Below are positions 20,531 through 34,428 of a stretch of 64,000 nt of DNA, one piece after another. Position 1 is the stretch's first letter, and each line of letters starts with the position of its first letter. The position numbers and the translations under genes were made by a program. The stretch is from a virus, in IMG/VR virus record IMGVR_UViG_3300047476_001386, positions 1-64,000 of that record; one strand, written 5' to 3'. The notes below the pieces were generated by a model. The model saw only the letters and a list, made by a program, of their open reading frames with translations. It made no database searches and was not told where the DNA came from.

Positions 20531-21625
20531 TTAAAAGTCAAATACTTTTTTATTTACAATCGGTTTATCTCTCAGAGTATACCAACCTTTTCCATTATAT
20601 ATATTTCTAACAGACTCAAAGTAATCCTCATATTGAGGTTTAATTGCCTCTAGGCTAAAATTAGCAACAGCAAACTTTCGACATACTTGAGGATCAATAT
20701 TGTCAATGTTCTTGGCAGCCCACACAAAATCCCCAAAGTTACGGCATCTATACCCTGTAACTCCATGAATATTGTTCTCAGTAAAAGCACCCCAATCTGT
20801 TGTAATTGTGGGAGTTCCACTAAGTAGGCACTCTACCTGAACACCTCCAAAAGGCTCATTATATAGCGATGGAACAAAAGCTGCTCTAGCGTGAGCCATT
20901 AGCCGCTTTCGGGTTTCATAATCCGCATAACCAACAAACTCGACATGAGAGGGACACTCCGTGTACCCCATAGCCTCTAGCGATCCTTGTCCAGCTATCT
21001 TTAGCTTAACGCCAGCTTCTTTAGCGGCCTGAATAGCAATATGAACGCCTTTACCATCGTATACACGCCCTAGAAATAGAAAGTAGTCTTCCTTAAATCC
21101 AACCTCAAAATCATTAACATCGAAATAATTAGGAATAACTACATCATACCAGTCCTGCTTACACGTTCCTACAGATTCGAGGCCATAGTAAGCATGATAA
21201 ATGGCGTAAGACTCAAAAACTTTAAATCGAGCCCAGTGTCCACCAGCATACCCAATTCCGGGCTCGATAGTAATTAGATCAGGGTGCGCATCGCACACAG
21301 GTCTAACTCCAGCGCCCCAAAATGGCAGAATAATGTCGCCGGGCTGTTTTCTAAGCCCAATCTCTCTAATGGCATTCTTAAAGAAAGTCTGATATGCATG
21401 ATCGTTCATATCAAACTGAAAAAAGTTGGTGCGCCAATCGTAATTATAAGCTTTTGCTAGGTCCGCATTGGTAGTAACGGGTACGTTATTTGGAACTGTA
21501 GAGTCTTCATGCCCATAATGGATAACATCCATCATGGAGCAGAACTTTAGCACTTTTTGAGTATACGCACACGCAGTATAGTCTTTACTAGTGACTGTAT
21601 GTGGAAGGCCTAGTACATGTATCAT
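20531..21625 (-). CDS. Glycosyltransferase, family 4-like
   Basis: 364 residues with a GT-B layout. [18 protein letters not shown] begins the nucleotide-sugar binding half, and [19 protein letters not shown] is the E-x7-E motif of retaining GT4 enzymes. It may glycosylate phage DNA, host surface glycan or a virion part. The start at 21625 overlaps the mini-Myb stop by ATGA; a GTG further upstream is rejected. Confidence 0.9.
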
Positions 21626-21774
21626 CCAAAGGTCCACTTTCTTTTTCTTAGGTAGTAAACCTGATTATAAATCGATTTTTCTGTTTTACCTGGAAAATGC
21701 TCAAGAAGCTCGTTCATTGGCATCGTTCCAAATAACTTTTTGAGTCGGCATTTTTCTTCCCAAGTCCATCGCAT
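21622..21774 (-). CDS. mini Myb/SANT-like DNA-binding protein (50 aa)
   Basis: [20 protein letters not shown], then [15 protein letters not shown] follows the W-x-x-EE...L..LF... and GKT..SI..(Q/K)...L pattern of a single Myb-like repeat. The ATG is 6 bases after a consensus -10 (leaderless), and the stop overlaps the glycosyltransferase start. Likely a regulator at the head of the operon. Confidence 0.75.
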
Positions 21775-22052: not shown

Positions 22053-22329
22053 TGGGGGATTTGGAGAACATTTCCGCCTTTCTGACGCTGCTGTACAACT
22101 TTATGAAGAACTATCTGGAAGTACTCTAGATAATCATGCAGATATTGATCGTTCGGACCCTATTCTACTTCAAGTTGTTGATACACTCGGACTTAGAAAT
22201 GCCGAGGGACCCGACTGTATGTTTTGTATAGTTGAAGTAGCTGCAGGAACTCGGTATTGCATTATTACTGATGATGTACTTCCTGAGTATGTAGTAACTG
22301 AGTTTGACCTGGATAAGGTAGCTACTTAA
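22033..22329 (+). CDS. protein of unknown function (98 aa)
   Basis: MTRIVIDGGFGEHFRLSDAA, then SDPILLQVVDTLG and YCIITDDVLPEYV. TTGGAG precedes the ATG. Short proteins with this pattern are common in large phages; function unknown. Confidence 0.6.
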   Translation: MTRIVIDGGFGEHFRLSDAAVQLYEELSGSTLDNHADIDRSDPILLQVVDTLGLRNAEGPDCMFCIVEVAAGTRYCIITDDVLPEYVVTEFDLDKVAT

Positions 22330-22339
22330 AAAATAGTTC

Positions 22340-22368
22340 TTGACTTTTTGAGCTATCTGATATATACT
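22340..22368 (+). promoter_or_regulatory. rightward promoter TTGACT-N17-TATACT
   Basis: -35 22340-22345, -10 22363-22368. The ATG at 22381 is 12 bases after the -10, so the leader would be at most a few bases. Confidence 0.7.
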
Positions 22369-22380
22369 TATGACTGTTCG

Positions 22381-22767
22381 ATGTACAAGATATGTAAAAG
22401 TTGTAATAAAGAAAAATTAAAACAAGAGTTTCATTCTAATGGTACCACGACAAGGGGTACCAAAAAATATAAACCAATATGTAAAGAATGCACTAATAAA
22501 AATAGTGGACTAATAAAACAGTCAAAAATAAAACAAGTATTGTCTAGCTTAAATAGAGACTACGCTTGTGAGCTATGTGGATATAATAAAAATTATGCTG
22601 CTTTATGCTTTCATCATGTAGACTCATTGCATAAGAGCTTTGCTATTTCTGAGAAAAGCTGGACAGCTTCTATATCTTCTCTACAACTAGAAATAGACAA
22701 ATGTGTAGTATTATGTGCAAATTGTCATGCTGAAGTACATAATCCTACTTTAGAGAATTCCGTTTAA
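22381..22767 (+). CDS. HNH endonuclease
   Basis: 128 residues. An N-terminal zinc ribbon (CKSCNKEK and CKECTN) is followed by a C-terminal HNH domain: CELCGYN, CFHHVDSLHK (HH motif), VVLCANCHAEVHNP (N-CH-EVH). A free-standing homing-type endonuclease, inserted directly before the tmRNA gene. The AT-rich codon use differs from its neighbours. Confidence 0.85.
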   Translation: MYKICKSCNKEKLKQEFHSNGTTTRGTKKYKPICKECTNKNSGLIKQSKIKQVLSSLNRDYACELCGYNKNYAALCFHHVDSLHKSFAISEKSWTASISSLQLEIDKCVVLCANCHAEVHNPTLENSV

Positions 22768-22786
22768 CATCTATAAAAAACAATAT

Positions 22787-23062
22787 TGGACACCGGGGCA
22801 GTACCGGTTACCTCCACCATAGATATACAGGAAGATGCGGCCGCATAATTAAAGGTATAGTAACCTTGCTACTGTATATTCATCATGGGGGTAAAATAGA
22901 TCTCGACAATTTTGTGTAATAAATAGACTAGGAATCGGTAAGAAACGACCGCTAATCAGTTCAAATTTATAACTGCTAACGACAACGATAGCATTGAGGC
23001 ATACGCTCTAGCAGCGTAAGTACTCTTGGGTTTAGCGCCACCTAGAAACAGAACGGGGCAAC
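22787..23062 (+). ncRNA. ssrA: Circularly permuted two-piece tmRNA
   Basis: Acceptor piece first: T-arm stem ACCGG/CCGGT (22792-22796, 22804-22808) with a non-standard GGCAGTA loop, acceptor 3' strand TACCTCC (22809-22815), A, CCA (22817-22819). Intervening segment 22820-22886. Coding piece starts GGGGGTA (22887-22893), which pairs with TACCTCC and leaves a G-U wobble at the third pair, the alanine identity element. It continues into the tRNA-like GATCTCGAC region. The tag is GCT (22975) to TAA (23019): ANDNDSIEAYALAA, ending in the classic ALAA degron. The exact 5' and 3' ends are uncertain. Confidence 0.93.
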
Positions 23063-23065
23063 AAC

Positions 23066-23094
23066 AAGCCGTCCAAGATTACCTTGGACGGCTT
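23066..23094 (+). terminator. intrinsic terminator after tmRNA
   Basis: AAGCCGTCCAAG (23066-23077) / CTTGGACGGCTT (23083-23094), 12-bp stem with an ATTAC loop. Confidence 0.8.
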
Positions 23095-24245: not shown

Positions 24246-24321
24246 GCCGGCTTAGCTCAGTAGGTAGAGCGTCTGTTTTGTAATCAGAATGTCGTGGGTT
24301 CGATTCCTGCAGCCGGCACCA
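24246..24321 (+). tRNA. tRNA-Thr (UGU)
   Basis: Complete cloverleaf with GCCGGCT/AGCCGGC acceptor, anticodon loop TTTGTAA and encoded CCA. Very close to bacterial tRNA-Thr(UGU). Confidence 0.95.
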
Positions 24322-24327
24322 TTTAGT

Positions 24328-24359
24328 AATAGGGGTCCTTGCGGCCCCTATTATTTTTC
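24328..24359 (+). terminator. intrinsic terminator
   Basis: AATAGGGG / CCCCTATT hairpin followed by ATTTTTCT, after tRNA-Thr. Confidence 0.85.
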
Positions 24360-24388
24360 TTGACATTTATAGCTTCGGAGCCTATAAT
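24360..24388 (+). promoter_or_regulatory. rightward promoter TTGACA-N17-TATAAT
   Basis: Perfect boxes: -35 24360-24365, -10 24383-24388; 6 bases to the ATG at 24395 (leaderless). Confidence 0.9.
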
Positions 24389-24394
24389 AGTCTC

Positions 24395-24955
24395 ATGAAC
24401 ATTTTTGTACTAGACGAAGATTTTGATACCTGTGCGGAATACCATATTGACAAGCATATTGTCAAGATGCCTCTAGAAGCCGCGCAGCTTCTTTGCTCCG
24501 CACATTGGATTAGTCAAGTAGGTTTTATTCCCCGCAAGATTACTCCTACCGAACGTGCCGAAGCACAAAAGCTAGTTACTAGTGATTTTTATGGTATGAC
24601 CCACTATAATCATCCTTGTGCTATCTGGGCTCGTTCTAGTCTAGATAACTTCGAGTGGCTACATTGCTATGCCAATGCTCTCAATTCAGAGTATGGCTAT
24701 CGCTACGGAGGTAAGTCTCATAAGTCACTAGGAGTTGTCAACCGACTTCCCATTCCGAATATTCCTCGGCTTGGCCTTACTCCATTTGCTCTAGCTATGC
24801 CGGACGAACTTAAGTCTGACAATGCAATTGAGTCCTATAGAATGTTTTATATGCTTGACAAGAGTCCTTTTGCTTCTTGGAAGTATAGGTCTCCCCCACC
24901 TTGGTGGGACTCCTCAATTACTGATGGAGTAGAAACGAGGATTAGTAGACGATGA
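24395..24955 (+). CDS. conserved phage protein, MNIFxLDxD family (186 aa)
   Basis: MNIFVLDEDFDTCAEYHIDK, then HIVKMPLEAAQLLCSAH. This N-terminal pattern (LD.D...AEYH-DKH.VKM-LE.AQ-L..AH) is widespread in large phages, sometimes annotated as pyrimidine dimer glycosylase without good evidence. C-terminus PFASWKYRSPPPWW. Function treated as unknown. Leaderless start. Confidence 0.75.
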   Translation: MNIFVLDEDFDTCAEYHIDKHIVKMPLEAAQLLCSAHWISQVGFIPRKITPTERAEAQKLVTSDFYGMTHYNHPCAIWARSSLDNFEWLHCYANALNSEYGYRYGGKSHKSLGVVNRLPIPNIPRLGLTPFALAMPDELKSDNAIESYRMFYMLDKSPFASWKYRSPPPWWDSSITDGVETRISRR

Positions 24956-25416
24956 TTATTCCCGAATATAAGGATTTTCTTAAGCTTAAGGCCGAAATCC
25001 AACCGCAGCGTGCATTAATTTACGATGATGGTTGGACTGAAAATCCCGATATTCGGAGTACCGAAGTGCGTTTCATTACTAGAGACGCCTATCCTGAAGT
25101 GTTCAGGATTATGCAAGAATACGGCCGCCAAAATCAGGCCCGCTGTGGTATTGATCGAGTCCTCCAGATCAAAGACCATATTCAGCTTTCTACGTACCAT
25201 CCAGGGGACTTTTATGGATGGCACAAGGACGCTCGGCTCCTGTCCTGCTCTTTACTACTTACAGATGGTTTTACCGGAGGTAGGCTAGAGTTTCGTGACT
25301 GGGGTGGAACCCTGAAAAAGAAAGCTGGGCGTGCCGTATTCTTCCCTAATGTTGAACATAGAGTCCGCCCAGTACTGTCTGGTGTGCGAGACTCCCTAGT
25401 AGTGTGGTGGCAATGA
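24952..25416 (+). CDS. 2-oxoglutarate/Fe(II) oxygenase, PKHD type
   Basis: 154 residues. YGWHKDAR holds the HxD iron ligands, VEHRVRPV the distal His, and GVRDSLVVWW the 2OG-binding Arg. Compact, like phage prolyl-hydroxylase-type enzymes. A second enzyme of the class is at 56.6 kb. Substrate unknown. ATGA overlap with the previous gene. Confidence 0.88.
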   Translation: MIIPEYKDFLKLKAEIQPQRALIYDDGWTENPDIRSTEVRFITRDAYPEVFRIMQEYGRQNQARCGIDRVLQIKDHIQLSTYHPGDFYGWHKDARLLSCSLLLTDGFTGGRLEFRDWGGTLKKKAGRAVFFPNVEHRVRPVLSGVRDSLVVWWQ

Positions 25417-25862
25417 CAGTAGACAATGAACTTTTGAGAGCGATGGGGCTTCCCCCCGGTAAGGCAGGTCTCTCCCGACTGGTGCATGGTAAGACAGGTC
25501 CTGCACAGGCCTGTAGCCCGGCAAATTCTGGAGCAAGCGGTACTGTAGGGGTTAAGTACGACTCTAATAAGCCCCGCATGGATTTGCTTCCTCCGCGTGC
25601 TCTACTTGAGGTCGCTAAAGTATTAAGCTTTGGTGCTGCCAAGTATGCCCCCGGTAATTGGAAACGTGTGGATAACCTTCAAGCTCGGTATACCGCTGCC
25701 GCCCTTAGGCACATTGCAGATCATATGATTGATCCAAATGCGGTCGATGAAGAATCTCACATTGATACTCTAGCGCATGCTATTTGTTGTTTGATGTTCA
25801 AATTGGAAGATAAACTTGAAAAAGATCAAAGTACAAGCACACGAGCGACTGACGAAGGCTAA
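25413..25862 (+). CDS. dATP/dGTP diphosphohydrolase-like protein (DUF5664)
   Basis: 149 residues. GVKYDSNKPRMDLLPPRALLEV, FGAAKYAPGNWK and DTLAHAICCLMF match the phage family annotated as dATP/dGTP diphosphohydrolase N-terminal domain/DUF5664, related to MazG-like nucleotide hydrolases. May help balance the dNTP pool. ATGA overlap with the oxygenase gene. Confidence 0.8.
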   Translation: MTVDNELLRAMGLPPGKAGLSRLVHGKTGPAQACSPANSGASGTVGVKYDSNKPRMDLLPPRALLEVAKVLSFGAAKYAPGNWKRVDNLQARYTAAALRHIADHMIDPNAVDEESHIDTLAHAICCLMFKLEDKLEKDQSTSTRATDEG

Positions 25863-26508
25863 TATCGAGCGCGTTATCAAGCTGCTCGAAGACCCCAAGC
25901 CTATCACTAAGAAGGCTGCCTATGAAATTCTAAATATCAAGGAAAACCCCTCTCGCCTCGCTAAGATTATTGAGGAATTCAAAGCTGAAAAGGCCTATGA
26001 AGCCTCTCGCCGCGAGAAGAACCGAGGCAAGCCCGCTGATCCTAGTGAAATTCAAGCAATCATTGAACTTTATCTGGCTGGTGAAGGAACTACCGAGATT
26101 GCTCAAAGGCTCTTTCGTAACTCCTCATTCGTTACAGCAATTCTAGAGCGTATCGGAGTTCCTAAACGTCCTACTGGAGACGCTCGATTTGAAAAGGCAA
26201 TTCTGCCTGAAAATTGCGTCGCCGATAGCTTTGAAAAGGGAGAAATTGCTTGGTCCGCTAAGTATCATGCTCCTTGTCGTATCGAGCAAGTTCTTGATGC
26301 GGAATTTCTAGCTAAAAATCCCGGTATTTCCGGAAACTATGACTACCCTTGCTACAGGATTTATGTTACTGAAGCAATGGAAGACATTCCACCTCGTTTT
26401 GCTGGTGTTAGAGTTGGTGGACACTTTGCATATGCTTACGCGTACGATCTCGGTAAATTGACTCACCTTCAGGAATATGGGATTAATCTTGACAAACTTA
26501 GTTCATAA
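25816..26508 (+). CDS. putative DNA-binding protein of unknown function (230 aa)
   Basis: TTG start (MKKIKVQAHERLTKANIERV), overlapping the previous gene by 47 bases. Lys-rich N-terminal half; residues about 85-120 (LYLAGEGTTEIAQRLFRNSS) look like a helix-turn-helix, followed by a beta-rich C-terminal domain. Conserved-looking but not recognised. Confidence 0.6.
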   Translation: MKKIKVQAHERLTKANIERVIKLLEDPKPITKKAAYEILNIKENPSRLAKIIEEFKAEKAYEASRREKNRGKPADPSEIQAIIELYLAGEGTTEIAQRLFRNSSFVTAILERIGVPKRPTGDARFEKAILPENCVADSFEKGEIAWSAKYHAPCRIEQVLDAEFLAKNPGISGNYDYPCYRIYVTEAMEDIPPRFAGVRVGGHFAYAYAYDLGKLTHLQEYGINLDKLSS

Positions 26509-26857
26509 GCATCTTATCGTTCGAGCCACTCTTGGCTACTGCCCCGATAACCCTGAGTGGGTTAAGGAATGGCTGGCTCATCTAGTCAATGTTATTGACA
26601 TGAAGATTCTTAGTGGTCCTCATGTAGCTCGCGTTGACAATGTTGTAGGCAATATCGGTTGCACTGGTGTAGTCATTATCGAGACTAGCCATATTGCGGT
26701 TCATTTCTGGGAAGAAACGGGCCTTATGCAACTTGATGTTTATACGTGTGGGCAATTTAATAAGGACCTTATTTTTAGGGAACTTGCCTGCCTAGAGCCT
26801 ACGCATATGGATTTTAAGTTCCTCGATAGGGAATACGGCCTGATCGAGGTAATTTAA
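26477..26857 (+). CDS. speD: S-adenosylmethionine decarboxylase-like protein
   Basis: 126 residues. CTGVVIIETSHIAVHFWEET, then LMQLDVYTCGQF matches SpeD/SpeH AdoMet decarboxylase: the ETSHIAVH segment aligns with the self-cleavage ESH-xIH site and DVYTCG with the catalytic Cys loop. The residue before Ser is Thr rather than Glu. These enzymes make decarboxylated SAM for spermidine; homologues occur in cyanophages. A TTG 12 bases in is an alternative start. Confidence 0.8.
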   Translation: MGLILTNLVHKHLIVRATLGYCPDNPEWVKEWLAHLVNVIDMKILSGPHVARVDNVVGNIGCTGVVIIETSHIAVHFWEETGLMQLDVYTCGQFNKDLIFRELACLEPTHMDFKFLDREYGLIEVI

Positions 26858-26860
26858 CTC

Positions 26861-26914
26861 TTGACTTTGCTGCTCGGCTCCCTTATACTATATGGACAGT
26901 AAGGGAGCCGAGCG
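26861..26914 (+). promoter_or_regulatory. promoter inside a 14-bp perfect inverted repeat
   Basis: -35 TTGACT 26861-26866, N17, -10 TATACT 26884-26889. GCTCGGCTCCCTTA (26872-26885) and TAAGGGAGCCGAGC (26900-26913) are perfect inverted arms with a 14-base spacer covering spacer, -10 and transcription start. This could be a strong operator or an mRNA hairpin that hides the ribosome site of the gene at 26915. Confidence 0.75.
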
Positions 26915-27169
26915 ATGTTGCAATATTGTTATAATCCAGTAGAAACTCCCGCCTATGTATGGGCTAGAAGCCAAGACCCGAATCTTCATAGAATTTATTC
27001 GCAAGCCGGAATTGATGCCGGCCACGCAGACTATAGCCCCGCCATTCGCTACCGAGCAGAAGGCTATGAAGCGGGCTATGATGCGGCTCTTGCCGAAGGA
27101 TACTTGTGGATTTTGGCTAGTGCTTATTTGGGTTGGACGCCTGTAAATAGAGAACAAAATGAAACTTAA
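26915..27169 (+). CDS. small Gly/Tyr-periodic protein (84 aa)
   Basis: MLQYCYNPVETPAYVWARSQ, then AEGYEAGYDAALAEGYLW, the same glycine-periodic helix type as at 7054 and 7512. The GAGCG before the ATG is part of the inverted repeat. Confidence 0.65.
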   Translation: MLQYCYNPVETPAYVWARSQDPNLHRIYSQAGIDAGHADYSPAIRYRAEGYEAGYDAALAEGYLWILASAYLGWTPVNREQNET

Positions 27170-27557
27170 GATGTATACCATTTTTGCCCGAGAAAGTATT
27201 GTCAAAATGAACGGCAATCGTGGCAAGATGTGCACGCAAGCAGGGCACGCGTATCTTCATGCTTTCTGGGACTCCGCAAAGAGGTTTCAAGGCGAGCATG
27301 GATTTGCAGAGGATCAACCTAGCGATGCAGAGCGCTATCAAGACAGCGATCATGCATATAAGATTACTCTGGTTGTAGATACTGTAGAAGAACTTGTTGT
27401 ACTAAGAAATAAATACCAGCCTATCTGTGGTGTAAGTCTTGTAACAGATGCTGGGTTTACAGTGTTTAATGAACCCACCACTACTTGCCTAGGCCTTGGT
27501 CCAATTAGTGAAAACGATATTGGCGAAGATTTGAAGTCCCTCAAACTTTTTATGTGA
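27159..27557 (+). CDS. pth2: Peptidyl-tRNA hydrolase 2
   Basis: 132 residues. GNRGKMCTQAGHAYLHAF (Pth2 K-x-x-x-Q-x-x-HA), then VTDAGFTVF, PTTTCLGLGPISE (D-AG-T...P-T-T-C-LG-GP) cover the Pth2 fold. It frees tRNA from prematurely released peptidyl-tRNA, which suits a phage with 26 tRNAs and a tmRNA. Pth2 is the archaeal/eukaryotic type and uncommon in bacteria. Confidence 0.9.
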   Translation: MKLKMYTIFARESIVKMNGNRGKMCTQAGHAYLHAFWDSAKRFQGEHGFAEDQPSDAERYQDSDHAYKITLVVDTVEELVVLRNKYQPICGVSLVTDAGFTVFNEPTTTCLGLGPISENDIGEDLKSLKLFM

Positions 27558-27560
27558 CCT

Positions 27561-27737
27561 ATGAAAATTGAAATTCCCGACGAAGAAGCAGACTACATTA
27601 CGGTACAAAATCTAAAAGAGTGGCGGGATGAGCTGCCAAATGTCCAAGGAATGTTCTCTCTGGACCCTGAAGAAGATCGAGAACAGATTGCTATTCTTGT
27701 AGACGCATTTGATAAGGTTATTGCCTGGTACAGTTAA
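27561..27737 (+). CDS. small acidic protein (58 aa)
   Basis: MKIEIPDEEADYITVQNLKE, ending FDKVIAWYS. Sits between Pth2 and the tRNA array; short helical acidic proteins of this kind are common in phages. Confidence 0.65.
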   Translation: MKIEIPDEEADYITVQNLKEWRDELPNVQGMFSLDPEEDREQIAILVDAFDKVIAWYS

Positions 27738-27738
27738 C

Positions 27739-27822
27739 GGGGGTGTGGTGTAAAGGTAGCCACGACGGACTTAAAATCCGTTTCCGTATGGAGTGTCGGT
27801 TCGAGTCCGACCACCCCTACCA
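27739..27822 (+). tRNA. tRNA-Leu (UAA)
   Basis: Long variable arm, anticodon loop CTTAAAA, CCA encoded; G1-U72 wobble in the acceptor. Confidence 0.93.
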
Positions 27823-27826
27823 ATTC

Positions 27827-27901
27827 GGGTGATTAGCTCAGAGGTAGAGCAACGGGCCCTTAACCCGTCGGTCCTCGGTTCAATCCCGAGATCACCCTCC
27901 A
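27827..27901 (+). tRNA. tRNA-Lys (CUU), with C33
   Basis: Acceptor GGGTGAT/ATCACCC, anticodon stem ACGGG/CCCGT, loop CCCTTAA. The nearly universal U33 before the anticodon is C. CCA encoded. Confidence 0.85.
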
Positions 27902-27902
27902 T

Positions 27903-27977
27903 GCCCGGTTAGCTCAGTGGTAGAGCGTCTCCTTTACACGGAGAGGGTCGGCGGTTCAAGCCCGTCACCGGGTACCA
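27903..27977 (+). tRNA. tRNA-Val (UAC)
   Basis: Anticodon stem TCTCC/GGAGA with loop TTTACAC; CCA encoded. Confidence 0.95.
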
Positions 27978-27986
27978 AAATTTTTC

Positions 27987-28015
27987 TTGACTTATTGGTC
28001 ATTATACCCTATAAT
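27987..28015 (+). promoter_or_regulatory. rightward promoter TTGACT-N17-TATAAT
   Basis: -35 27987-27992, -10 28010-28015, inside the tRNA array, serving the small gene at 28038 and the following RNAs. Confidence 0.85.
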
Positions 28016-28037
28016 GGTTTTTCAAATGAGGAATGAG

Positions 28038-28184
28038 ATGTATACAAGCTTTGTGAACCGGGGTATTTACGTTTTTACGGCTATTGAAGGTTATCGGAAG
28101 GCTTTTAAGAGGCGCAAGCAACTTCACTGGCTGCCCTCTCCGGCTCGGAAGCCGAAGTTTCCGGTACCTAAGTTCGGTATCTAA
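28038..28184 (+). CDS. small basic protein (48 aa)
   Basis: MYTSFVNRGIYVFTAIEGYR, then a basic tail ending FPVPKFGI. GAGGAATGAG precedes the ATG; an in-frame ATG at 28026 is the alternative start. Confidence 0.55.
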   Translation: MYTSFVNRGIYVFTAIEGYRKAFKRRKQLHWLPSPARKPKFPVPKFGI

Positions 28185-28260
28185 GGGGAATTAGCTCATT
28201 TGGTAGAGCGTCTGCTTTGCACGCAGAAGGCGAGCGGTTCGATCCCGCTATTCTCCACCA
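28185..28260 (+). tRNA. tRNA-Ala (UGC)
   Basis: Anticodon loop TTTGCAC, stem TCTGC/GCAGA, CCA encoded. Confidence 0.95.
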
Positions 28261-29026
28261 ATTATTAGGTAGCTATGGTATCGCGTCCGGCACTCCGGAA
28301 TCGCCATCCCACAGCAATTACCTGCACTAACAAGTCAGGGCTGGCTGGCACGCTGCAACGTGTCGATCCGCGATTGCAGAGCGGGGTAGGTTAGTGAAAA
28401 ATTTTAGGGCCTAAGCTTTTTGCCGAAGGATAACCAAAGGGCCACCGTACGGGACCCCCCTAAATAGGCGGCCCTGAAAAGGTGTCCGTTTCCCGCAAGG
28501 GAGTGACTATCTTGAGGCACCGGGCTTAGCGCGCTTACCTCAAGATATTCTAGGTCTCCATGGCAGCCGCAAGGTCCCCACGGAGTTCCGAAAACAGTGA
28601 TTAGCTCAACGGAAGAGCCTTCGGGTTCTTGGTTCGAATCCAAGATCACTGTCTCCGCAAGTAGTTTACTACTTGCCCACCTTAGGTTCCGGCCTAAGGA
28701 TTAAGCTGACAACGCTGGGCACAGGGTTGTTAGTTTGCCCCCGAAAGAGTTGAGTGTGGCAGCACTTAAACTCCAAGTACCTGCTGCCGTAGGTAGCGAT
28801 GCGGAATCGTTGGGGAAGAATAGTCAAGCAGTTGAAAAGAACTATTCGCCGCCTGAAAAGGTCCACGCGTGATGCGAGATAACCAAGTGTTTACTGCGAC
28901 ATGGAGCTAAGTATCTTACCACTTATGCCTCCATTAGTTTAGGTAAGATGCTGTCTAGCTGCCCGCCGGCTAGAACTAAGTTGTAACATGAGGCCCCTGG
29001 GCTAAGTGTAGGGCGGGCCAGATTAT
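28261..29026 (+). ncRNA. large structured non-coding RNA region (about 770 nt), GOLLD/ROOL-like in setting
   Basis: No credible gene on either strand. It has many stable stems: TCCGG/CCGGA (28286), CACTAAC/GTTAGTG (28325 with 28390) enclosing a domain, TATCTTGAGG/CCTCAAGATA (28508 with 28538), GCAAGTAGT/ACTACTTGC (28657-28676), CCTTAGG/CCTAAGG, GAATAGT/ACTATTC and ATCTTACC/GGTAAGAT. An anticodon-less tRNA-like element is embedded (28595-28651). Size and placement inside a phage tRNA array recall the GOLLD and ROOL giant RNA classes; homology could not be tested. Confidence 0.65.
28595..28651 (+). ncRNA. tRNA-like element lacking an anticodon arm
   Basis: 7-bp acceptor CAGTGAT/ATCACTG, D-arm GCTC-AACGGAA-GAGC and T-arm CTTGG-TTCGAAT-CCAAG are all present, but only nine bases (CTTCGGGTT) replace the anticodon arm. 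No CCA. It lies in the middle of the large RNA region. Confidence 0.7.
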
Positions 29027-29109
29027 GCGAGTATGGCGAAATTGGTAGACGCACCAGATTTAGGTTCTGGCGGGCAACCGTGTGGGTTCGACTCCCTCTA
29101 CTCGCACCA
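29027..29109 (+). tRNA. tRNA-Leu (UAG)
   Basis: Anticodon loop TTTAGGT, long variable arm, CCA encoded. Matches the heavy use of CTA leucine codons in this phage. Confidence 0.95.
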
Positions 29110-29339
29110 AGGTCCCCTTTGGGGATTTAAGTCCTGCTTCTAGGGCAGGCAATAGTTTGTAGTCGTCAGCGTAAAATTGGGAGTAGGGAAAGCAACCTGG
29201 AAAGAGGGACTCATAGTACAATGAGTTGCAGAATCCTAAACACCTCCACGGTTCGAAACGTGATAGAGGAGACGCAATACCTCGGCTACAAATTCTATTT
29301 TTACTTATACAATATTTGTATAGCTACAAATAGAATTAT
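29110..29339 (+). ncRNA. structured non-coding segment between tRNAs (about 230 nt)
   Basis: No gene. TTTGTAG pairs with CTACAAA to enclose a domain with hairpins CTCAT/ATGAG and CACG/CGTG; CCTGC/GGCAGG lies before it; AATTCTATTT/AAATAGAATT closes a final hairpin. Candidate structured RNA or tRNA spacer. Confidence 0.5.
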
Positions 29340-29414
29340 TGGTTAGTAGCTCAATGGTAGAGCTCTCGGCTGTTAACCGAGCGGTTGTAGGTTCGAGTCC
29401 TACCTAGCCAGCCA
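29340..29414 (+). tRNA. tRNA-Asn (GUU)
   Basis: Anticodon loop CTGTTAA, acceptor TGGTTAG/CTAGCCA, CCA encoded. Confidence 0.95.
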
Positions 29415-29421
29415 ATAATAT

Positions 29422-29496
29422 GTCGGTGAGGGAAACTGGTAATCCGCGGGTCTCCAAAACCTTGAGAAGTAGGTTCGATTCCTACCGCCTTCGCCA
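29422..29496 (+). tRNA. tRNA-Trp (CCA)
   Basis: Anticodon loop CTCCAAA and good T-arm, but the acceptor stem GTCGGTG/CGCCTTC has mismatches at pairs 2 and 3. CCA encoded. Possibly weakened or edited. Confidence 0.8.
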
Positions 29497-29500
29497 TTAT

Positions 29501-29590
29501 GGAAGCGTGGCAGAGTTTGGTTTATTGCATCAGTCTTGAAAACTGACGAAGGTAACACTTCCGTGGGTTCGAATCCTACCGCTTCCGCCA
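29501..29590 (+). tRNA. tRNA-Ser (UGA)
   Basis: Anticodon loop CTTGAAA, long variable arm, CCA encoded. Confidence 0.95.
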
Positions 29591-29610
29591 TTTTTAACTA
29601 GGAAATAGCT

Positions 29611-30195
29611 ATGTCCGCTGTATTTTTAACGTCCGATACGCATTTTGGACACGCTAATATATGTAAGTTTACAAACTATGATGGAACACCTCTAAGACCT
29701 TGGGATGATGTGGCCCAAATGGATGAGGATATGGTAAAGCTATGGAACGATACAGTTCGTCCTAATGATAAAGTTTATCATCTCGGGGACGTAGTAATCA
29801 ATCGTAAGAGCCTAGCCATTCTAGACCGTCTTAATGGAGATAAGGTTCTTATTAAGGGCAATCACGATATTTTTCAACTTTCTGATTATACTAAGTATTT
29901 CAGAGACATTCGTTCTTATCATGTTATGAATGGTTGTATTTTATCACATATTCCTGTCCATAAGGATAGTATTGCACGTTTTGGGGCTAATATCCATGGA
30001 CACCTTCATGGTAACCGAGTTCGCAAAGTACGAGACGTCGATGTAAAAACTGGCGGCTTACTGTATAGTGACCAAATTGACCCGGATTATTTCTGTGTAT
30101 GTGTTGAGCATACTGGATTTAAGCCTATTCTTTTTGAAGATGTACTAACGCTTATTGAAAGCCAAGGTGGCCGGATCGGATTTAGGAATAAGTAA
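29611..30195 (+). CDS. Metallophosphoesterase
   Basis: 194 residues: TSDTHFGHANI (D-x-H), VYHLGDVV (GD), IKGNHDIF (GNHD), LSHIPVH (H), IHGHLHGN (GHxH). The TSDTHFGH...GNHD layout is the small phage phosphoesterase family. Substrate unknown. Confidence 0.9.
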   Translation: MSAVFLTSDTHFGHANICKFTNYDGTPLRPWDDVAQMDEDMVKLWNDTVRPNDKVYHLGDVVINRKSLAILDRLNGDKVLIKGNHDIFQLSDYTKYFRDIRSYHVMNGCILSHIPVHKDSIARFGANIHGHLHGNRVRKVRDVDVKTGGLLYSDQIDPDYFCVCVEHTGFKPILFEDVLTLIESQGGRIGFRNK

Positions 30196-30196
30196 T

Positions 30197-30439
30197 ATGC
30201 AGAATAAGATGTACTTTCTATCGAAAGAGTCAACTCCTAGTTGGACTTTTTATGCGGATGATTTGTCTGTCATTCTGAAGCAACTAGAGCCTTGTATTTG
30301 TGAAGATTGCTGGGAATACGAAACGTTATTTGCAGCGCAACCCTATATAGAGCTTGATACTAAGGATAAGATTAACGCGCTTCTTGCTACTTCTTGTGGC
30401 TGCCAATACTACTTTGGAGAAGATTATGCCCAAGCCTAG
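30197..30439 (+). CDS. small protein of unknown function (80 aa)
   Basis: MQNKMYFLSKESTPSWTFYA, with Cys-rich segments (CICEDC, SCGC). AGGA upstream. Overlaps the next gene by 14 bases. Confidence 0.6.
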   Translation: MQNKMYFLSKESTPSWTFYADDLSVILKQLEPCICEDCWEYETLFAAQPYIELDTKDKINALLATSCGCQYYFGEDYAQA

Positions 30440-30569
30440 GAAGAATGAAACTGAGCAGCAATTTATGAAGCGCTGCGTTCCAGCCCTTGTCAAGGAAGGA
30501 AAGGCCCAAGATCAAGCAGTTGCAGTTTGTCTCACTATGTGGTCAAACAAACCCAAAAATAAGTCTTGA
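30426..30569 (+). CDS. small protein with phage C...QAVAVC motif (47 aa)
   Basis: MPKPRKNETEQQFMKRCVPA, then KEGKAQDQAVAVCLTMW. This F-x-x-RC...G...QA.A.C...W motif is found at the ends of several phage structural proteins and as stand-alone peptides. GGAGAAG before the ATG. Confidence 0.65.
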   Translation: MPKPRKNETEQQFMKRCVPALVKEGKAQDQAVAVCLTMWSNKPKNKS

Positions 30570-30594
30570 CTTTGTAGGTTTTATACCCTATAAT
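30566..30594 (+). promoter_or_regulatory. rightward promoter TTGACT-N17-TATAAT
   Basis: -35 30566-30571, -10 30589-30594; 6 bases to the ATG at 30601 (leaderless). Confidence 0.88.
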
Positions 30595-30600
30595 ACATAA

Positions 30601-30804
30601 ATGAATTGCGAAGAACATACAAAACTTCGACTACAATACCTTTACGGGTATACTTGTGAAGTAGTCTCCTTTGACGATGCTTATGCACGGCTAAAGGGGA
30701 CTAATTCTTTTCAGGTATTTAGAAACCATCGAAGACTTAGAAATGATGGTTTTCTAATCAATGGCGTTTATCACCACAAAGGGAGGCAACAATCAGTAGC
30801 GTAA
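30601..30804 (+). CDS. small protein of unknown function (67 aa)
   Basis: MNCEEHTKLRLQYLYGYTCE, basic C-terminus with several His. Predicted leaderless. Confidence 0.6.
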   Translation: MNCEEHTKLRLQYLYGYTCEVVSFDDAYARLKGTNSFQVFRNHRRLRNDGFLINGVYHHKGRQQSVA

Positions 30805-30806
30805 AT

Positions 30807-30998
30807 ATGGTAGCTCTCAACGTTTTTGTGCGTGAAAGGGCCGAACTAGCTAGGCAAATTATCGAACTTGAAAACGTGGAATATGCTAATGCCACGGATA
30901 ATAACCTAGCTGACGATGAACGATGGACTCTTATTGAGGTCCATAAGTATTTTGATACTAGAATTAAGGAAATTCAGGGCCTTTTAGGAGGTGAATAA
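30807..30998 (+). CDS. small helical protein (63 aa)
   Basis: MVALNVFVRERAELARQIIE, acidic helices, ending QGLLGGE. Confidence 0.55.
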   Translation: MVALNVFVRERAELARQIIELENVEYANATDNNLADDERWTLIEVHKYFDTRIKEIQGLLGGE

Positions 30999-31014
30999 TG
31001 GCCCTGAATACTAT

Positions 31015-31088
31015 GCTTCTATAGCTTAATGGCAGAGCAAACGACTGATAATCGTTCGACCCAAGTTCGATTCTTGGTAGAAGCACCA
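31015..31088 (+). tRNA. tRNA-Ile (GAU)
   Basis: Anticodon loop CTGATAA, stem AACGA/TCGTT, CCA encoded. Confidence 0.95.
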
Positions 31089-31091
31089 ATT

Positions 31092-31167
31092 GTGCTGGTG
31101 GGCGGAAAGGCTACGTCTCGGTCTGCAAAACCGAATCATGAGGGTTCGAGTCCCTCCCGGCACTCCA
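31092..31167 (+). tRNA. tRNA-Cys (GCA)
   Basis: Anticodon loop CTGCAAA, stem TCGGT/ACCGA, CCA encoded. Confidence 0.93.
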
Positions 31168-31168
31168 T

Positions 31169-31244
31169 TGGGGGATGGTGCAACTGGTAGCACGCCGGAT
31201 TTTGATTCCGGAGGTTGTGGGTTCGAAACCTACTCCCTCAGCCA
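31169..31244 (+). tRNA. tRNA-Gln (UUG)
   Basis: Anticodon loop TTTTGAT, acceptor TGGGGGA/TCCCTCA, CCA encoded. Confidence 0.93.
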
Positions 31245-31251
31245 ATTTTTT

Positions 31252-31326
31252 GTTAGGGTAGCATAACGGTAGTGCTCTGGTCTCATACGCCAGTCTGTGT
31301 TGGTTCGAGTCCAACCTCTAACACCA
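31252..31326 (+). tRNA. tRNA-Met (CAU), copy 1
   Basis: Anticodon loop CTCATAC. No G-C triplet in the anticodon stem, so not a normal initiator; elongator Met, or Ile if its C34 is modified to lysidine. CCA encoded. Confidence 0.9.
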
Positions 31327-31327
31327 T

Positions 31328-31404
31328 GCACGCATCGTCTAAATGGTTTAGGATTACACTCTTTCAAGGTGTAGGTGCGGGTTCGAGTCCCGTTGCGTGT
31401 TCCA
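31328..31404 (+). tRNA. tRNA-Glu (UUC)
   Basis: Anticodon loop CTTTCAA, stem ACACT/GGTGT, CCA encoded. Confidence 0.93.
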
Positions 31405-31419
31405 TTTTAAGGATAGAAA

Positions 31420-31680
31420 ATGTCTGATGAAGCTACTAGATACGTAATACACGTAGTATATAGAGATTACTCTGAGCAAACCAAGAGATTTACTATGTCG
31501 CCTGAAAAGGCGCATGAACTAGCAGAAAAGGTTTTGATGTCAGATAATGTTAGAGCAATTACTCTTGGTGAAGTTCTACAATATGGACATAAGTCTTTTA
31601 CAGAGGACTTCGACGTTTTATGGCCGTGTAGCTCAGAGGAAGAGCATTCGCCTGTCGAGCGAAAGGTCGGGGTATCGTAA
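31420..31680 (+). CDS. small protein overlapping tRNA-Asp (86 aa)
   Basis: MSDEATRYVIHVVYRDYSEQ, an alpha/beta protein; AAGGA precedes the ATG. The last 19 codons lie inside the tRNA-Asp gene, and the TAA stop is formed by its unusual T-loop. Confidence 0.65.
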   Translation: MSDEATRYVIHVVYRDYSEQTKRFTMSPEKAHELAEKVLMSDNVRAITLGEVLQYGHKSFTEDFDVLWPCSSEEEHSPVERKVGVS

Positions 31681-31696
31681 TCCCTCACGGTCGCCA
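31622..31696 (+). tRNA. tRNA-Asp (GUC), unusual T-arm
   Basis: Acceptor GGCCGTG/CACGGTC and anticodon loop CTGTCGA are normal, CCA encoded, but the T-arm GGGGT-ATCGTAA-TCCCT lacks T54, A58 and the 53-61 G-C pair. Overlaps the 3' end of the gene at 31420. Confidence 0.8.
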
Positions 31697-31703
31697 TTAT
31701 TAA

Positions 31704-31780
31704 CGGGTATTAGCGCAGTCTGGTAGCGCATCTGCTTTGGGAGCAGAGGGTCGTAGGTTCGAATCCTACATACCCGACCA
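31704..31780 (+). tRNA. tRNA-Pro (UGG)
   Basis: Anticodon loop TTTGGGA, stem TCTGC/GCAGA, CCA encoded. Confidence 0.95.
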
Positions 31781-31782
31781 AT

Positions 31783-31836
31783 TTAGGGGGCGTGGGGACG
31801 CTAGTGCACTAACCAAGTTCGACTCTTGGCCCCTAA
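31783..31836 (+). ncRNA. second tRNA-like element without a proper anticodon arm
   Basis: Perfect 7-bp acceptor TTAGGGG/CCCCTAA, D-like stem GCGT-GGGG-ACGC, a 10-base palindrome TAGTGCACTA in place of the anticodon arm, and a normal T-arm CCAAG-TTCGACT-CTTGG. No CCA; only 54 nt. Confidence 0.7.
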
Positions 31837-31928
31837 TTTTATTACGCGAACACACTGATACCTACAGGGAACTTAATCTGCTCGGGTATAGTAGACTGTG
31901 AACTGACAGTGTGTTCACGTAATAAAAT
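31836..31928 (+). ncRNA. 22-bp hairpin following the tRNA-like element
   Basis: Arms 31836-31857 and 31907-31928 pair over 22 positions with a single mismatch, enclosing a 49-base loop. Directly joined to the tRNA-like element; together they look like one processed small RNA. No coding potential. Confidence 0.6.
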
Positions 31929-31929
31929 T

Positions 31930-32005
31930 GTATCTCTGGTGTACGTGGTCGGCACGTGGGACTGAAAATCCTGAGGTTAGGGTTCGATTCCCTGGGGATG
32001 CACCA
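31930..32005 (+). tRNA. tRNA-Phe (GAA)
   Basis: Anticodon loop CTGAAAA, several wobble pairs in acceptor and anticodon stems, CCA encoded. Confidence 0.92.
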
Positions 32006-32007
32006 AC

Positions 32008-32098
32008 GTCCTATAGCTTAATGGTAGAGCGGTGCCCTTATAAGGCATGAGCAGCAGATGGCTGCACGATCTCGGTTCGAGTCCGAGTAGGACAACCA
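32008..32098 (+). tRNA. tRNA with UAU anticodon and a long variable arm
   Basis: 91 nt. Anticodon loop CTTATAA reads AUA (Ile), but the variable region is 22 nt with a 5-bp stem GCAGC/GCTGC, a class II feature of Leu, Ser and Tyr tRNAs. CCA encoded. Amino-acid identity is therefore uncertain. Confidence 0.88.
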
Positions 32099-32103
32099 TT
32101 TCC

Positions 32104-32179
32104 GGGTCTAGGGCCATCTGGGAATGGCAAGTGACTTTTAATCACTTCGTTTTGGGTTCGAATCCCATTAGACCCACCA
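32104..32179 (+). tRNA. tRNA-Lys (UUU)
   Basis: Anticodon loop CTTTTAA, stem AGTGA/TCACT, CCA encoded. Confidence 0.93.
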
Positions 32180-32180
32180 A

Positions 32181-32258
32181 GCTTCGGTAGCTCAACGGAA
32201 CAAGAGCACTACGCTACGGACGTAGGGGTTGAGGGTTCGAATCCTTCTCGAAGCGCCA
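32181..32258 (+). tRNA. tRNA-Arg (ACG)
   Basis: Anticodon loop CTACGGA, stem CTACG/CGTAG, CCA encoded; needs A34-to-inosine editing to read CGU/C/A. Confidence 0.93.
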
Positions 32259-32265
32259 CAATTAC

Positions 32266-32336
32266 GCCTAAGTAGCTTAATGGTAAAGCAGCGCATTGTG
32301 GATGCGCATATAAAAGTTCGATTCTTTTCTTGGGTA
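32266..32336 (+). tRNA. tRNA-His (GUG)
   Basis: Anticodon loop TTGTGGA, stem GCGCA/TGCGC. CCA is not encoded; the next tRNA begins one base later. The base before G1 is C, so G-1 would have to be added. Confidence 0.9.
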
Positions 32337-32337
32337 C

Positions 32338-32423
32338 GGAAGGTGGGCAGGCTGGTAATGCAGCAGATTGCTAATCTGTACAACCTTAGGGTTGAGTGGG
32401 TTCGATTCCCACACCTTCCGCCA
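32338..32423 (+). tRNA. tRNA-Ser (GCU)
   Basis: Anticodon loop TTGCTAA, long variable arm, CCA encoded. Confidence 0.93.
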
Positions 32424-32432
32424 AAATTTTTC

Positions 32433-32461
32433 TTGACTTTTTAGTTAAACTGATATATTAT
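32433..32461 (+). promoter_or_regulatory. rightward tRNA promoter TTGACT-N17-TATTAT
   Basis: -35 32433-32438, -10 32456-32461, 12 bases before tRNA-Gly. Confidence 0.8.
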
Positions 32462-32472
32462 ATAAAAATATC

Positions 32473-32547
32473 GCGGACATGGTATAGGGGATGTGCCCAA
32501 GCCTTCCAAGCTTGAGAGGACCGGTTCGATGCCGGCTGTCCGCTCCA
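32473..32547 (+). tRNA. tRNA-Gly (UCC)
   Basis: Anticodon loop CTTCCAA, stem CAAGC/GCTTG, CCA encoded. Confidence 0.93.
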
Positions 32548-32553
32548 ATTTAC

Positions 32554-32646
32554 GGGTGTGTTGCAGATATGGTGTGTTCTGCTTGGGACTGTAAATCCCA
32601 TCCCACTGGGTAAACAATCTAGGTTCGACTCCTAGCACACCCACCA
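32554..32646 (+). tRNA. tRNA-Tyr (GUA)
   Basis: Anticodon loop CTGTAAA, long variable arm, CCA encoded. Confidence 0.94.
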
Positions 32647-32651
32647 TATTT

Positions 32652-32727
32652 GCGCTGATAGCTCAATGGTTAGAGCCGACCGCTCATAACGGTCTGGTTG
32701 TGGGTTCGAGTCCCTCTCGGCGCACCA
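32652..32727 (+). tRNA. tRNA-Met (CAU), copy 2
   Basis: Anticodon loop CTCATAA, stem GACCG/CGGTC, CCA encoded. No initiator features; elongator Met or an Ile2 type. Confidence 0.9.
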
Positions 32728-32728
32728 T

Positions 32729-32803
32729 GCTCCCTTAGCTCAATGGAGAGAGCAGCAGGTTTCTACCCTGTAGATGAGGGTTCGATTCCTTCAGGGAGTG
32801 CCA
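32729..32803 (+). tRNA. tRNA-Arg (UCU)
   Basis: Anticodon loop TTTCTAC, stem GCAGG/CCTGT, CCA encoded. Last of 26 tRNAs. Confidence 0.93.
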
Positions 32804-33187: not shown

Positions 33188-34428
33188 ATTGAGAGTGAGG
33201 ACTACAAAGCCAACCTCTCAATAATAGATAGGCAAATCTAATAAATACCTATCTAGAGTAGCTCGCCCGCGAATTGCATAAGCGGACCTTATGGAATGCA
33301 TCTACCGGCTCTGATGGCCATTATCCGGGGACCTGACCGTAGTAAACTACTCTACTATTGAAGTAGATGAAAAACAATAGGCTTTCCTATATAAGGTTTA
33401 GCGGCGCGCTTGTAAAAGTATTTCTACACATTAACGACCCGTTTGGCTAATGAACCTACCGGTCTAGTAAGTATGCTCAGATGAGCTCTACCTCAGTCCA
33501 GCCCTGGAAACACTGATGGATATCTCTTTATTGTTCGACTCGGCCGGCTCTTTATATCCGGTATCAGCGAATAGAAAACTACTTGCGGGAAGTTCCTAAG
33601 TAATTAGGCTTCTTTGGGTACAGCCGAGAGCTGTATCTTAAAAAGTCTAATAGCCGCGTGTGGCAAGAGCTGTAGTGATACAGTGACAGAAAGCTAGCGA
33701 TCCTTATAGCTTTCGACGTTGAAAAACGGTTAATCACGCAGGGCAACTTCTTAAAAGACTTCCCTAAAAAGGAGTCTGCTTCCTACGATATGCCGAACAA
33801 GTGGCACTCGGGCAGAGTGTCATTTCCTACCGCAAATAGGATACGGATGCAACTTATCTAAGAAGTGAGAGTTACTGCCCCAGGTACAATAGTCTGAGTC
33901 TAGCAAACAAAGGCGTGTACCAGTTGTTAGGATAAACGTGTAAAAGCGTTCCGGTTCTAATGACCACTTAGTAGGGTGCCAACCGAAAAGTACGTAGGTG
34001 TGTGGTATTTTGATCTTCAAAAGAGATCGGAGCTACTGGCAAGCACATCTGCAGGATCTAGTCTTTACTAAACGCTATATGAAGCAATCAAAAGCAAAAG
34101 ACTTGCCAGGCATTTGAAGTAAGAAGCCAAACACTCCAGTGAAAACAATGGAGTCATGTAGTAACCGCAAGTTACTTCATGTTGATTGAAAATGCTGTCC
34201 TAGAGGTTTAGCGGCCTCGAACTGCCTTAAGCAGAGGGTAGACTATCAGTCGAGTATTCAGATGCTTAGCGCTACAGCCTGCGCTATATAAATTGGGCGG
34301 CTTTGACGGGATAGGTGTTACACCTGGATACGCACGAAACCCTATAAGGAATACAGTGCTAAGACCCGTTGTACCAAGCAGTAATCTCATGCTTGGCTTA
34401 ATTCTAGCCCCATTTTGGGGCTATTTTT
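33188..34428 (+). ncRNA. giant structured RNA gene (about 1.24 kb)
   Basis: Bounded by its own promoter (33153) and an intrinsic terminator (34405), with no gene on either strand. Many hairpins are visible: TTGAGAG/CTCTCAA at the 5' end, TAGATAGG/CCTATCTA, TACAGC/GCTGTA, AAAGCTA/TAGCTTT, GGCACTC/GAGTGTC, GTAAC-CGCAA-GTTAC, ACTCCA/TGGAGT, TAGCGC/GCGCTA and CCAAGCA/TGCTTGG near the 3' end. AGGTTTAGCGGC occurs twice (about 33397 and 34205). Size and place beside a phage tRNA array resemble GOLLD and ROOL RNAs, but family membership is untested. Confidence 0.75.
34405..34428 (+). terminator. intrinsic terminator of the giant RNA
   Basis: TAGCCCC / GGGGCTA with an ATTTT loop followed by TTTTT. 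Confidence 0.9.

Follow-up and report, generated by a model that had tools for sequence, protein, structure and literature searches.

An alphaproteobacterial-type permuted tmRNA gene preceded by an HNH endonuclease gene in a T5-like phage

The mycobacteriophage Bxz1 group, Wildcat and Bacillus phage G encode one-piece tmRNAs from standard, non-permuted genes. The gene described here likewise specifies a phage-encoded trans-translation RNA, but it is permuted. Phages carrying ssrA have been listed previously (PMC4131195), and B. elkanii phages are described as carriers of tmRNA genes. Two-piece tmRNAs were reported in 2022 in 53 phages, mostly marine or aquatic, by a survey based on ARAGORN, and the carriers named there include Melnitz, an OM43 myophage related to the pelagimyophages, the Pelagibacter phage Mosig and a Prochlorococcus phage (PMC9004378). 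A homing endonuclease has also been described in tmRNA genes of the tmRNA_intron form, where it resides in a self-splicing group I intron in the T-loop region (PMC11915505).

Here we describe a complete permuted tmRNA gene at 22757-23094 (+) of a 64,000-nucleotide stretch of viral DNA, hereafter the window, which is part of a 71,343-base IMG/VR virus record of an uncultured, metagenomically recovered phage. Like the Melnitz and Mosig set, it represents a phage-encoded permuted tmRNA, of the alpha type as in Melnitz, in a carrier with no integrase on its record. Unlike the carriers named in the survey (PMC9004378), the window phage is T5-like and possesses 26 tRNAs and a GOLLD RNA, with no glutamine riboswitch found by Rfam. 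As in the tmRNA_intron form, a putative homing endonuclease gene is associated with the tmRNA gene; however, the HNH gene of the window is free-standing and lies between the promoter and the RNA, and there is no intron. Since two-piece phage tmRNAs are already published and many viral contigs match the motif, this gene adds to a known kind, and the novelty implied by an earlier, sequence-only reading of the locus was overestimated. With the window phage, a T5-like carrier joins the phages equipped with their own ribosome-rescue RNA.

Architecture of the permuted tmRNA gene

The Rfam scan matched the tmRNA_permuted model (RF04321) at 22757-23019 (+) with 116.2 bits (E 5.5e-22, model positions 1-213 of 213) and the alpha_tmRNA model (RF01849) at 22711-23063 (+) with 97.1 bits (E 3.1e-25, positions 1-355 of 355), above the respective curated cut-offs of 47 and 50 bits. 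Within the Rfam clan, the alpha model was the match retained, over the beta and cyano models. The alpha_tmRNA search had been proposed by the sequence-only reading, and it returned the whole model. The claim of a phage-encoded, permuted two-piece tmRNA therefore stands at the level of the gene, given the viral record and the full-length matches, while the processing into two pieces is a prediction. The model matches are far beyond what chance would give. The T-arm and acceptor motif was found a single time in the window, and none of 100 shuffles contained it.

All elements of the gene lie on the + strand, with the acceptor half 5' of the coding half and a putatively excisable spacer in between. 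The acceptor piece (22757..22819), delimited by the cmscan alignments, the sequence and cofolding, begins with the P2 5' strand AUUCC (22757-22761), which pairs with GGAAU at 22931-22935; within the P2 region, UCUA also pairs with UAGA in the Rfam alignment. This pairing places the 5' end of the gene at about 22757, upstream of the start at 22787 given earlier, whereas the earlier 3' end at 23094 is retained. The T-arm ACCGG/GGCAGTA/CCGGT (22792-22808) is followed by the acceptor 3' strand TACCTCC (22809-22815), the discriminator A (22816) and an encoded CCA (22817-22819). The intervening segment of 67 nt (22820..22886), predicted to be excised, extends the acceptor stem (AUAUACAG/CUGUAUAU) and when folded alone is of modest stability (-15 kcal/mol, z -1.7).

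The coding piece (22887..23063, or to about 23094 with the 3' hairpin), defined by the alpha_tmRNA and tmRNA_permuted alignments, consists of the acceptor 5' strand GGGGGTA (22887-22893), which forms a 7-bp stem with TACCTCC, the D-domain, the P2 3' strand GGAAU (22931-22935), a hairpin CGGTAAGAAACGACCG (22936-22951), the tag frame and, according to the model alignments, a 3' region with ACCUAGAAACAGAA. The frame runs from GCT to GCG (22975-23016), closes with the stop codon TAA (23017-23019) and encodes ANDNDSIEAYALAA, which ends in small apolar residues (AA), as permuted tmRNA requires. The acceptor pairing with a G-U at the third pair, the CCA after the acceptor strand, the tag and the order of the two halves had all been read correctly from the sequence. 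The G3-U pair, the discriminator A and the CCA together make up the alanine identity set. Downstream, a 12-bp hairpin, AAGCCGTCCAAG-ATTAC-CTTGGACGGCTT (23066..23094; -21.2 kcal/mol, z -8.3), with a weak T tract, is probably the terminator or the 3' boundary.

In its permuted order, the GGCRGUA T-loop and the CUCCACCA acceptor with its G-U pair, the gene resembles Caulobacter ssrA and RF01849, and it shares with alphaproteobacterial tmRNA the AND-type tag ending in ALAA and the 3' ACCU-G-AACAGAA block. The T-loop GGCAGTA does depart from TTCRA, as was noted earlier, but it fits the alpha_tmRNA consensus GGCgGUA and is thus the normal alphaproteobacterial loop and no anomaly. The differences from alphaproteobacterial tmRNA are that the gene is phage-borne, has an HNH gene upstream and carries one base more than the alpha consensus in the D-domain (GGGGGUAAAAUAGAUCUCGAC), and that neither the tag, searched with one codon left free, nor a 28-base signature of the coding piece (GGTAHGAHACGACCGCTAATCAGTTCAA) matched any of 84,980 species genomes. 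The exact tag also had no match in viral contigs. The second check proposed earlier, a tmRNA finder, did not bear the reading out, as ARAGORN found no tmRNA in the window; the miss probably reflects the one-base-longer D-domain, and it is not counted here as evidence against the gene.

Conservation in the sibling phage and position of the HNH gene

The closest record (G001, a sibling phage whose DNA polymerase is 77% identical) contains a permuted tmRNA of 121.1 bits, located upstream of the same phosphoesterase gene as in the window phage. Outside the invariant parts the two tmRNA sequences differ greatly, and yet the helices are kept. The T-stem is ACCGG/CCGGU in the window and GGGAG/CUCCC in G001, acceptor pairs 6 and 7 are UA,AU and CG,GC, respectively, and P2 varies in a compensatory manner from AUUCC/GGAAU in the window to UGUUC/GAACA in G001 and AAUCC/GGAUU at locus L236 of another T5-like relative (G021). 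The G001 tag, ANDNEAFVELALAA, has diverged from ANDNDSIEAYALAA, its frame is open, and it ends in ALAA. The spacers (67 nt in the window, 84 nt in G001) are unlike in sequence, but on cofolding each forms a single long hairpin that prolongs the acceptor stem, and a canonical terminator occupies in G001 the position of the 3' hairpin of the window. Across eight phage tmRNAs, the seven acceptor and five T-stem positions hold standard pairs throughout, with an invariant G-U at the third acceptor position, whereas the other pairs vary on both sides; P2 forms four of five pairs in each of L257 and L266. The shared locus and the compensatory changes indicate that the tmRNA gene is maintained and is no relic. 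A pseudogene was ruled out by the compensatory changes, and a one-piece tmRNA by the permuted gene order. Among 80 loci of phosphoesterase homologues, a regular-expression search found an adjacent permuted tmRNA in none, and an Rfam scan of ten of them found none either.

The two loci differ in the free-standing HNH endonuclease gene (22381..22767 (+); 128 aa, MYKICKSC...ENSV; PHROG 2255, E 5e-30), which is absent at the G001 tmRNA locus. At its 3' end it overlaps the 5' strand of the tmRNA by 11 bases, and its final codons (GAG AAT TCC GTT TAA) supply the P2 5' strand of the window, with the old strand TGTTC remaining upstream. The region at 22319..22399 (+) aligns with the promoter and first transcript bases of G001 (L211, 3326-3402; blastn 81.5% over 65 nt, E 1e-12) and would represent the inherited tmRNA promoter with the old transcript start. 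It contains a consensus-matching candidate promoter, TTGACT at 22340 and TATACT ending at 22368 with a spacing of 17 nt, in a region where promoter-like matches are no more numerous than in shuffles; the layout TTGACT-16/17-TATACT-TATGACTGTTCG is common to both phages. In G001 the promoter leads directly into the tmRNA, so that, relative to G001, the HNH gene of the window separates the promoter from the acceptor half, and the promoter-to-RNA distance is about 380 nt. This interposition could alter tmRNA expression in the window phage. The HNH gene is located within the predicted tmRNA transcription unit, and it probably depends on the promoter of the tmRNA, which is intact.

In G021 (L236), a homologous HNH gene (43% identical) directly precedes the tmRNA with an overlap of about a dozen bases, while L239 and L243 possess an HNH gene (62% identical to that of L236) directly followed by the same methyltransferase-like gene (72%), without a tmRNA. 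The relatives thus display three states of the locus, HNH with tmRNA (the window phage and G021), tmRNA only (G001) and HNH only (G023 and G033). These states leave room for a tentative and rather doubtful proposal, that the HNH gene and the permuted tmRNA form a linked unit in T5-like phages, and that cleavage at sites linked to a tmRNA may allow the HNH gene to spread and to take the tmRNA along from phages of one host to those of another. Homing itself is a putative activity of the HNH protein. Members of this HNH family account for 2 of 120 ORFs directly upstream of viral permuted tmRNAs, as expected from the window phage and L236, so the association is not general. The order promoter-HNH-tmRNA, which was not met among the titles of the matches listed in a narrow literature search, is an unusual and new detail on a known kind of gene. 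The apparent insertion with its rebuilt P2 shows how phage tmRNA genes may be gained, lost and remodelled.

Proposed function and alternative explanations

We consider it likely, with a probability of about 0.8, that this phage ssrA gene, which is of the permuted alphaproteobacterial type, is functional, giving rise to one precursor and two pieces, charged by the host and tagging stalled products. The steps from transcription and promoter use through two-piece processing, charging and tagging to the benefit for the phage are proposed from established tmRNA biology and the gene context. The gene would be transcribed as a single precursor. RNase P and 3' processing enzymes of the host would excise the 67-nt spacer, so that the acceptor piece (about 22757-22819, with its CCA end) stays paired with the coding piece via the acceptor stem and P2. 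Host alanyl-tRNA synthetase would then charge the tmRNA via the G3-U pair, and with host SmpB and EF-Tu it would reach ribosomes that have stalled on broken mRNAs. Translation would move to the internal frame and append ANDNDSIEAYALAA, and the tagged product would be destroyed by host ClpXP-type proteases. The likely benefit is that ribosomes would be kept free during the degradation of host mRNA, with the tmRNA belonging to a group of translation aids that also comprises the 26 tRNAs, a PTH2-type peptidyl-tRNA hydrolase and the GOLLD RNA. Tagging of a different set of proteins and ribosome recycling late in infection, both suggested by the sequence-only reading, are hypothetical roles. No SmpB gene was found on the 71-kb record, indicating that host SmpB is needed; since the record is a fragment, SmpB may also be encoded elsewhere in the phage.

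An inhibitory role is conceivable for phage RNAs. The RNA of mycobacteriophage DS6A, which lacks a tag and consists of the TLD only, has been proposed to act as a decoy, and a TLD-only phage RNA inhibited tmRNA upon expression in E. coli (PMC11915505, PMC4131195). By analogy, the tRNA-like domain encoded in the window could titrate host SmpB or alanyl-tRNA synthetase and thereby block host trans-translation. A decoy, however, requires no tag, and the window gene retains the tag frame, the resume context (UAACUGCUAAC), the stop codon and the 3' conserved region, just as the diverged G001 tag remains open and ends in ALAA; the retained tag counts against such a role, which we regard as improbable. 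Still less credible is a relic of a host ssrA captured by integration or imprecise excision as an attachment-site remnant. Integration commonly takes place at tmRNA genes, and prophages are known to contain fragments of them (cited in PMC9004378), but the gene of the window is complete, the record is without a tyrosine integrase, the T5-like genome is probably lytic, the tag and signature matched none of the 84,980 genomes, and the gene is syntenic in G001 with compensatory changes.

A further alternative takes the HNH insertion as its starting point: the tmRNA may have functioned in the ancestors and now be silenced or decaying. The promoter homologous to that of G001 is on the far side of the HNH gene, about 380 nt upstream of the RNA, and the sole nearer candidate, TTGTCA-18-TACTTT at 22722-22751, is weak and absent from the promoter scan output. 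P2, however, was re-formed with the 3' codons of the HNH gene (five of five pairs), the other helices are intact, the tmRNA would remain co-transcribed with the HNH gene, and L236 combines the same HNH-tmRNA order with an intact tmRNA. Silencing is thus unlikely, to about the same degree as the decoy, and the working ssrA gene is the preferred reading.

Carrier phage, host and other phage tmRNAs

The T5-like placement of the carrier is based on its genes for terminase, DnaB-like helicase, primase, polymerase, NAD-dependent ligase, SbcCD and RNR. The nearest isolates share 44% identity in DNA polymerase and 53% in terminase, and those among the matches listed are all T5-like phages of gammaproteobacteria. 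No tyrosine integrase was found on the 71-kb record, and the T5-like genome suggests a probably lytic phage. The 26 tRNAs (24246-32803 (+)) cover all 20 amino acids, with small ORFs interspersed, and the cluster ends with the GOLLD RNA (33993-34393 (+), 158.3 bits in Rfam), which is also present in G001 (L003) and in L007. Rfam found no glutamine riboswitch in the window. The PTH2-type hydrolase (27159-27557 (+); PF01981, E 1.4e-14) was not found in the G001 record; within the control set, the PTH2 family was found only in archaea. A glycosyltransferase gene (phrog_3408, 20531-21637 (-)) encodes a product 66% identical to Synechococcus cyanophage proteins, and 51 of the 56 phage records matching it are Synechococcus phages.

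The sequence-only reading had taken the permuted form to point to an alphaproteobacterial host. Such a host is plausible for the window phage, but the tmRNA is only suggestive of it: Melnitz carries an alpha-type tmRNA in a host that is not alphaproteobacterial (PMC9004378), and for the tmRNA of G021, a T5-like relative, the highest score comes from the beta model. The alpha type therefore does not fix the host, and the host range of tmRNA phages is not readable from tmRNA type alone.

A single alpha-type motif matches at least 120 IMG/VR contigs, some of which look cellular, with ribosomal L12 and transporter genes among the upstream neighbours. ARAGORN reported a tmRNA in 74 loci, as against 122 candidate sites from the motif scan. 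A blastn search of phage and plasmid sequences with the tmRNA as query gave one weak true match, to Sinorhizobium phage Phosso, the rest being noise from the HNH region. Phosso (L002/L009), an S. meliloti isolate, encodes an unannotated permuted tmRNA (PV764938.1, 349596-350198 (-), 113.3 bits, tag ANDNVSTKVALAA), in whose region ARAGORN found no tmRNA. It is of the alpha type like that of the window phage, but the carrier is a jumbo phage (469 kb), the spacer is about 410 nt, and no HNH gene is adjacent. Covariance models thus detect phage permuted tmRNAs that ARAGORN misses.

The ORFs directly upstream of the viral permuted tmRNAs in IMG/VR (L011-L130) include an exonuclease (phrog_298) in 23 of 120 cases, with 22 matching Pfam PDDEXK_1, and an SNase-type endonuclease in 11 of 120; these repeated neighbours suggest that the location of the tmRNA recurs within some groups of phages. 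One 235.8-kb viral record (G030) carries two permuted tmRNAs, a beta-like one (L264, 117.6 bits), in which no standard tag was read, and another that is only marginally alpha-like (L266). In the T5-like relatives L256 and L265, the tag frame apparently starts with GGC (GNDDIYDIAA and GNDDIYDMAA) and not with an alanine resume codon. For the viral permuted tmRNAs of L047, L060, L083 and L097, ARAGORN reported tags that are long and atypical, among them ANTKALGFADLTVGMSELRLAA and ANRKALGFADLTVGMSKMRLAA.
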